Part shown: positions 11,814-12,906 of the stretch, one piece after another
Layout of the letters: every line of letters begins with the position of its first letter
How positions within the stretch are numbered: the first letter of the stretch is position 1
NCBI RefSeq assembly: GCF_900172325.1
Contig: NZ_FWFR01000001.1
Span: 1,690,335-1,754,334 of the forward strand
Direction: 5' to 3'
Source: Oceanibacterium hippocampi
GTDB taxonomy: Bacteria > Pseudomonadota > Alphaproteobacteria > Sneathiellales > Sneathiellaceae
Length of the DNA stretch: 64,000 nt
Position numbers and translations under genes: made by a program
The notes under the pieces: generated by a model
The model's input: the letters and a program-made list of their open reading frames with translations, nothing else
What the model was told of the DNA's origin: nothing
The model's database searches: none

Positions 11814-12365
11814 ATGCAGAGTTACGATCTTTCGCGGTTCTCGGTCCTCGTGGTCGAGGACAATAAGTACATCACCTCGTTACTTGTGATGTGTATGCGG
11901 GTCCTTGGCGTCGGAACGGTCAAGATGGCCACCGACGGCGGCCAGGCGATCGAACTGCTCAAGCTTATGAAGACCGATCCGGTTCGCGCCGGCATGCAGA
12001 ACGTCGATCTGGTCCTCTCGAACTGGCAGATGGCGCCGGTTGACGGGTTGATGTTCCTGCGCTGGATCCGCCGCCACAAGGAAAGCCCCAATCGGTTCGT
12101 TCCCTTCGTGATGATCACCGGTTATGCCGATCCGGAGCATGTCGCGGCGGCCCGCGATCTCGGCGTGACCGACATGCTGGCCAAGCCGTTCTCGATCAAT
12201 TCAGTGGCAGACAAACTGGTCACGCTCATCGAGCGCCCCCGCCAGTTCATCCATACGGCGGACTATTTCGGCCCCGATCGCAGGCGGCGCGCGCTACCCC
12301 ATGCCGGCGAGGATCGGCGCAAGCTCGACGACAAGTCGCCGACCGTGGAGGTCGTCTATGAATAA
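11814..12365 (+). CDS. Receiver-domain protein with Asn at the phosphoacceptor position
   Basis: A 183-residue single-receiver protein without an output domain. The acidic pocket E15-D16 (VVEDN), the switch Thr102 (ITGY) and Lys124 (LAKPF) are in place. The position that should be the phosphorylated Asp reads N70 in VDLVLSNWQM (codon AAC at about 12021-12023). The C-terminal tail carries HTADYFGPDRRRR, a motif I recall from alphaproteobacterial receiver proteins. The gene overlaps the following HPt gene by 8 nt, so the two are probably made together. By family knowledge a D-to-N receiver cannot be phosphorylated normally, and it may act as a phosphorylation-independent binding partner or be locked in one state. 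A sequencing error is the main alternative. Confidence 0.85.
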   Translation: MQSYDLSRFSVLVVEDNKYITSLLVMCMRVLGVGTVKMATDGGQAIELLKLMKTDPVRAGMQNVDLVLSNWQMAPVDGLMFLRWIRRHKESPNRFVPFVMITGYADPEHVAAARDLGVTDMLAKPFSINSVADKLVTLIERPRQFIHTADYFGPDRRRRALPHAGEDRRKLDDKSPTVEVVYE

Positions 12366-12906
12366 GCGCCGTGACCCGAATGCGCCGCCGGTCAAGGTCC
12401 GCATCTACCGGTTCCGCAACCGCCTGAGGGAAAAGGCCGGCGGCCTCGCCGGAAGCGGGGGGGGCAACGGCGGCGCGGCCGAGGGTGGCCGGATCCCCGC
12501 CGAACTGATCGCCAAGGCGCAGGCCGAGTTCGAGAAACTGTCGGAGGATTATCCCGACTGGGTGCAGAAGAATCTCGAGGACCTCCACGGGATCGTCGAG
12601 GAGGCCGAGGCCGACGAGAGCCGGCGGGCGGCACTCTTCAAGCGCATCCAGGAAGTGGCGCACGAACTGAAGGGCCAGGGCGGTACCTTCGGCTATCCGC
12701 TGATCAGCCGGTTCGGCGCCTCGCTCGACGCCTTCACGGGGCCCACCGCCGGCCGCAGCGACAACCACGTCAAGATCGTGAAGGCCCATGTCGACGCCAT
12801 GATCGCGACGATCAGGGCGCGGGTGTCCGGCGATGGCGGGGCGATCGGCGACGAACTCACCAGGACGCTGGACGCGGCCATCGCGAAATACGCCAAGCGG
12901 ACCTGA
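12358..12906 (+). CDS. HPt-domain phosphotransfer protein
   Basis: A 182-residue protein. The ATG at 12358 is preferred over an in-frame ATG at 12301, which lies inside the receiver gene. After a basic, glycine-rich N-terminus (to about residue 45) comes a helical bundle holding the HPt signature AHELKGQGGTFGYPLIS, with H102 as the predicted phosphorylated histidine. HPt modules shuttle phosphoryl groups between hybrid kinases and receivers in the cytoplasm. Its overlap with the receiver gene suggests they are partners, which makes the missing receiver aspartate more interesting. No cognate kinase lies beside it. Confidence 0.82.
   Translation: MNKRRDPNAPPVKVRIYRFRNRLREKAGGLAGSGGGNGGAAEGGRIPAELIAKAQAEFEKLSEDYPDWVQKNLEDLHGIVEEAEADESRRAALFKRIQEVAHELKGQGGTFGYPLISRFGASLDAFTGPTAGRSDNHVKIVKAHVDAMIATIRARVSGDGGAIGDELTRTLDAAIAKYAKRT

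Follow-up and report, generated by a model that had tools for sequence, protein, structure and literature searches.

Two overlapping genes of Oceanibacterium hippocampi, located in the 64,000-nucleotide stretch analysed here (the window), encode a receiver that has Asn in place of the phosphoacceptor Asp and carries an arginine-rich tail, and an HPt protein. The Asn is fixed and under selection across a whole lineage, the tail motif with its key arginines and the HPt phospho-His are conserved, the two proteins are constantly paired, and receiver, tail and HPt are naturally fused in relatives. We tentatively propose, giving the reading close to an even chance, that the pair is the split form of a receiver–tail–HPt module in which a phosphorylation-blind, c-di-GMP-sensing pseudo-receiver docks on, or gates, its own HPt. 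Features on which this proposal is based are as follows:

11814..12365, + strand: single-domain pseudo-receiver, 183 aa, with a C-terminal arginine-rich tail (ORF, translation, Pfam, AlphaFold)
11844..12212, + strand: receiver domain, residues 11–133 (Pfam coordinates)
12021..12023, + strand: codon 70 (AAC), the Asn that occupies the phosphoacceptor site (direct read; common to 41 distinct sequences)
12153..12155, + strand: R114, helix alpha-4 Arg at the CleD R113 position (conserved in 40/41; helix 107–115 in the model)
12240..12332, + strand: arginine-rich region R143 to D173 (RQFIHTADYFGPDRRRRALPHAGEDRRKLDD), putative Cle-type c-di-GMP-binding motif (phmmer, motif, conservation)
12358..12906, + strand: HPt protein, 182 aa, with an 8-nt overlap between its start and the receiver stop (ATGAATAA) (ORF, Pfam Hpt)
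12397..12444, + strand: conserved N-terminal motif of the HPt protein, VRIYRFRNRLREKAGG (fused homologues have a similar motif between tail and HPt)
12661..12663, + strand: H102, HPt phospho-His, codon CAC (38/39 Asn-type pairs with a readable site)
12787..12789, + strand: H144, second conserved HPt His (KAHxD; 63/68 aligned HPt rows)

A receiver with an intact pocket but no acceptor Asp

The receiver protein matches the Pfam Response_reg profile PF00072 (1.6e-17; 64.1 bits against a cut-off of 30.2), and its AlphaFold model (pLDDT 83.8, pTM 0.75, with low confidence in the tail) has a CheY fold that a structure search matched to CheY structures. Besides N70, the pocket residues E15, D16, T102 and K124 are all kept; coordinates and residues agree with a preliminary description of this DNA, and codon 12021–12023, re-read in the assembly, is AAC. 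With Asn70 instead of the acceptor Asp, the protein is not a canonical phosphorylatable receiver and belongs to the aspartate-less pseudo-receivers as defined in PMC12632262. Receivers devoid of the acceptor Asp make up 2.0% in published counts (PMC12632262), and Asn accounts for 16% of acceptor-Asp substitutions (PMC4395418). Among the 48 receiver domains of the window genome the acceptor residue is Asp in 46, Ser in one and Asn in one, the window receiver, which speaks against a chance occurrence. The domain with Ser (G000:C16:1924188-1924520) lies in an ORF that also holds a second receiver and a GGDEF match, in a PleD-like order.

The tail resembles the c-di-GMP-binding region of Cle proteins

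In a phmmer search the tail matched the arginine-rich c-di-GMP-binding peptide of Caulobacter CleD (PDB 6SFT, E=0.0014). Residues 143–173 are laid out as RQFIHTAD-YFGPDRR-RRALP-HAGEDRR-KLDD: the first repeat, YFGPDRR (151–157, with R143 upstream), fits the Cle motif [YF]xGP[DE][RK]R (PMC5677366), while the second, HAGEDRR, is a degenerate version of YxGPxRR in which G, the acid and RR remain while Y and P are absent. The CleD residues R113, R156 and R169, of shown importance (PMC5677366), have counterparts in R114, R157 and R169 of the window receiver. On a comparison with the CleD receiver made by spacing rather than alignment, R114 and R157 are 43 residues apart, as are R113 and R156 of CleD, and R157 to R169 spans 12 residues as against 13 in CleD. 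In the Asn lineage, R114 is conserved in 40/41 sequences and R143 in 41/41, both R157 and R169 are present in each of the 39 that are readable, and pairwise identity is 0.76 for the tail core versus 0.56 for the receiver. The tail is also conserved in relatives with the acceptor Asp, and so cannot by itself explain the Asn. We did not find the tail motif in the other receiver stretches fetched from the window genome.

By analogy with the Cle proteins, the tail of the window receiver may bind c-di-GMP. CleA and CleD act in a c-di-GMP-driven manner for which phosphorylation is not needed, and the acceptor site of CleD is a Glu (E70; E70A allele) (PMC5677366). Moreover, GGDEF proteins are encoded in all 40 Asn- or Ala-type genomes tested, with 11 in the window genome. 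The preliminary description had recognized an Asp-less receiver paired with an HPt, which holds and is conserved in evolution, but had overlooked the Cle-type tail as a possible phosphate-independent input and the occurrence of the pair as one receiver–HPt fusion protein in relatives.

The HPt partner is adjacent in the Asn form and fused in relatives

The partner barely exceeds the Pfam cut-off for Hpt (PF01627; 2.7e-5, 24.7 bits versus 24.6), and the profile was found in 17 of 18 homologues at E<=0.01. Its phospho-His, H102 counted from the ATG at 12358, is within 'VAHELKGQGGTFGYPLI' (AHELKGQGG), so that profile and motif both identify it as an HPt protein, and a direct read bore out the H102 given in the preliminary description. 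Compared with the 38/39 Asn-type pairs that keep this His, Asp-type relatives have it replaced (by L, R, D, M or Y) in 10/45 cases spread over several branches (L085, L086, L087, L094, L096, L097, L098, L032, L082 and L093; Fisher p=0.009, the related sequences not being independent). The published background for HPts that lack the phospho-His is 0.9% (PMC12632262). Since either the receiver or the HPt half can thus be chemically silent, direct receiver–HPt phosphotransfer is not the one universal function of the module. H144 is present also in ten rows without the canonical His.

Searches of relatives revealed N70 in 41 distinct sequences, the window one included, which span 11 alphaproteobacterial family groups and a MAG named Kordiimonadaceae that possibly falls in one of those groups. 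Alignment of orthologs at residue 70 upheld the substitution first noted in the window: near relatives have Asn (40 besides the window) or Ala (one), with Asp only in more distant members. In a phylum-wide sample of 398 genomes, every match at E<=1e-35 came from the same class as the window. A maximum-likelihood tree that left out column 70, and also one Asp sequence with a very long branch (L096) that had been placed within the Asn lineage in a first tree, separates the Asn sequences and the one Ala sequence (L034) from the rest at a branch supported by 85/84, which is suggestive, not decisive, of a single Asn/Ala lineage.

Outside the Asn/Ala group, homologues have Asp, and most are single proteins of 348–415 aa in which receiver, tail and HPt follow one another as in the window pair. 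For one such natural Asp-type fusion, the AlphaFold model (pTM 0.83 over 355 residues, both domains) is compatible with a defined receiver–HPt arrangement, the modelled protein being the fusion and not the window pair; in a structure search with this model, CheY filled the matches and the HPt half was barely probed. Where the complete gene arrangement of an Asn-type member was established, receiver and HPt are encoded by two genes, which in many cases overlap or are separated by a few bases. The Asn form thus belongs to the split version of a receiver–tail–HPt family, but it shares the split state with some divergent Asp-type members. Genus g2 is mixed, with the Asn-type pair in some genomes and, in others, a separate HPt gene near a divergent Asp-type receiver of 161–181 aa (L014, L016–L024 versus L006–L012). 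A gene for a metallo-beta-lactamase-fold protein (PF12706) lies 1.2–4.7 kb from the pair in nine loci of the lineage (L061, L062, L064–L068, L070, L071); none was found near the window pair, and a search across loci for a conserved operon partner gave no neighbour common to all.

These arrangements bear on an alternative that we consider unlikely, in which the c-di-GMP-bound pseudo-receiver is a Cle-like effector of motor or surface responses, acting on the flagellar switch or another target, with the HPt as an independent neighbour. The tail and the alpha-4 Arg are like those of CleA and CleD, which bind the flagellar switch (PMC5677366), FliM is present in the window genome, and the window receiver is the only one there, among the stretches fetched, with the tail motif. 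However, FliM was not found in 12 of 40 lineage genomes (9 of the 33 well-assembled ones, gaps in MAGs being a caveat), which makes an exclusively flagellar role improbable as a general rule. A joint function is also favoured by gene order: in the examined Asn-type loci the HPt gene lies next to the receiver gene, and in most Asp-type relatives the two are fused.

The Asn site appears to be maintained by selection

All 41 sequences of the Asn lineage have Asn70 and Trp71, and Asp at residue 16 (39/41), Thr or Ser at 102 (39/41) and Lys124 (40/41) are nearly invariant; residue 69 is Ser or Thr in 35/41 and Ala in 6/41. Segment 65–78 exceeds the whole receiver in conservation by a larger margin in the Asn lineage (0.75 versus 0.56) than in the Asp lineage (0.51 versus 0.43). 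Receiver dN/dS, estimated only where synonymous change is unsaturated, is about 0.04–0.10, and HPt values are similar except for one pair at 0.51. Given the invariant N70 and W71, the kept pocket, the conserved segment and the low dN/dS, the Asn site looks maintained and not decaying. Signs of decay are seen in two members: L034 has A70 and M124, and the near relative L013 (G002) has changes in both partners, with D16N, T102C and K124S in the receiver and H102N in the HPt. Its tail core is intact, and both of these decayed receivers retain the core tail arginines.

A ligand-free decoy or scaffold, whereby the Asn receiver would be a constitutive dock that sequesters or stabilizes the HPt and the tail would be purely structural, could account for the pocket retained alongside Asn, for the natural receiver–HPt fusion in relatives and for the joint loss of pocket and HPt His in L013. 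Such a role seems to us less probable still than a motor effector, as the greater conservation of the tail core than of the receiver would be unexpected for a mere spacer and its core arginines survive even in L013 and L034.

Fainter again is the likelihood of slow activation, in which N70 would deamidate to Asp with age to yield a phosphorylatable receiver, or Ser69 would be phosphorylated instead. CheY D57N is phosphorylated at the preceding Ser, and the kept pocket residues and the frequent Ser or Thr at 69 would fit such a scheme. On the other hand, six sequences have Ala at this position, the Trp after Asn is no fast-deamidating neighbour, and it is Asn, not Asp, that is fixed across the whole lineage. 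In favour of such activation, reversion to Asp is on record for a receiver with Asn at the acceptor site, in work cited in PMC4395418. Lastly, the Asn70 codon is AAC in 25 and AAT in 16 of the 41 sequences, so that read error and recent mutation are both excluded; the 40 further Asn sequences, with both codons, rule out a sequencing error or a lone mutation in one genome.

Discussion

According to the gating reading that we prefer, the two window genes would be the split version of the alphaproteobacterial receiver–tail–HPt module, whose receiver changed from Asp to Asn in one lineage, probably once, and then retained it. The Asn receiver would be unable to accept phosphate from the HPt, and its conformation may instead be set by c-di-GMP on the Cle-type tail with R114 assisting, as we infer from CleD. 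The pseudo-receiver would then dock in a c-di-GMP-dependent manner on its own HPt and either open or block access of phospho-H102 to other receivers, be they hybrid kinase donors or downstream regulators, so that the c-di-GMP level would be coupled to the phosphorelay at the HPt step. The more specific idea of a c-di-GMP-gated phosphotransfer switch at the HPt, and not at the kinase, in a family that trades off which half is active (receiver Asp or HPt His), is possible yet more doubtful. The preliminary description had suggested that the receiver acts as a decoy or allosteric partner for the HPt: an allosteric or docking role is the class of explanation that has survived best, and the decoy found no direct support.

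Switching of bacterial pseudo-receivers has been described as largely unknown (PMC12632262). The present lineage provides a natural comparison set of Asp-containing, mostly fused, and Asn-containing, split, receiver–tail–HPt modules and, as a candidate ligand and a partner are both evident, makes pseudo-receiver switching directly testable. If our proposal is true, the Cle family would gain an HPt branch, and there would be a case of a phosphorelay under second-messenger control at the HPt instead of at the kinase.

Among known systems, RitR is an aspartate-less receiver that likewise has Asn (Asn53) at the acceptor position, but RitR regulates by binding DNA and has additional changes in its pocket (Lys10, Asp81), whereas the window receiver keeps the rest of its pocket. 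The window HPt shares with PF01627 proteins the HxxKG-type phospho-His motif in a helical domain, and differs in its weak Pfam score and in its additional N-terminal NRLxEKAGG, KAHxD and GDGG motifs. A possible parallel is HmrABCX, where putative HPts are linked to c-di-GMP production; the accessible part of that report (PMC11481889) describes no receiver tail. CleA and CleD have in common with the window receiver the CheY-like receiver followed by a C-terminal arginine-rich region, an alpha-4 Arg at the same 43-residue spacing from a tail Arg, and an acceptor Asp that is dispensable (CleA) or absent (CleD E70). The window receiver differs from them in its acceptor Asn, in a degenerate second repeat one residue shorter, and in the HPt pairing or fusion of its family, a pairing that we did not find in the text of the Cle paper (PMC5677366); the Asn-type pair, moreover, occurs in genomes where FliM was not found. 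REC1 of the Caulobacter hybrid kinase ShkA is a pseudo-receiver with c-di-GMP as its signal and a phosphorelay under its control, as proposed here for the window receiver, but in REC1 the ligand sits on the alpha4-beta5-alpha5 face and the pseudo-receiver gates a kinase domain in cis, whereas the window system combines a Cle-type tail with an HPt partner.
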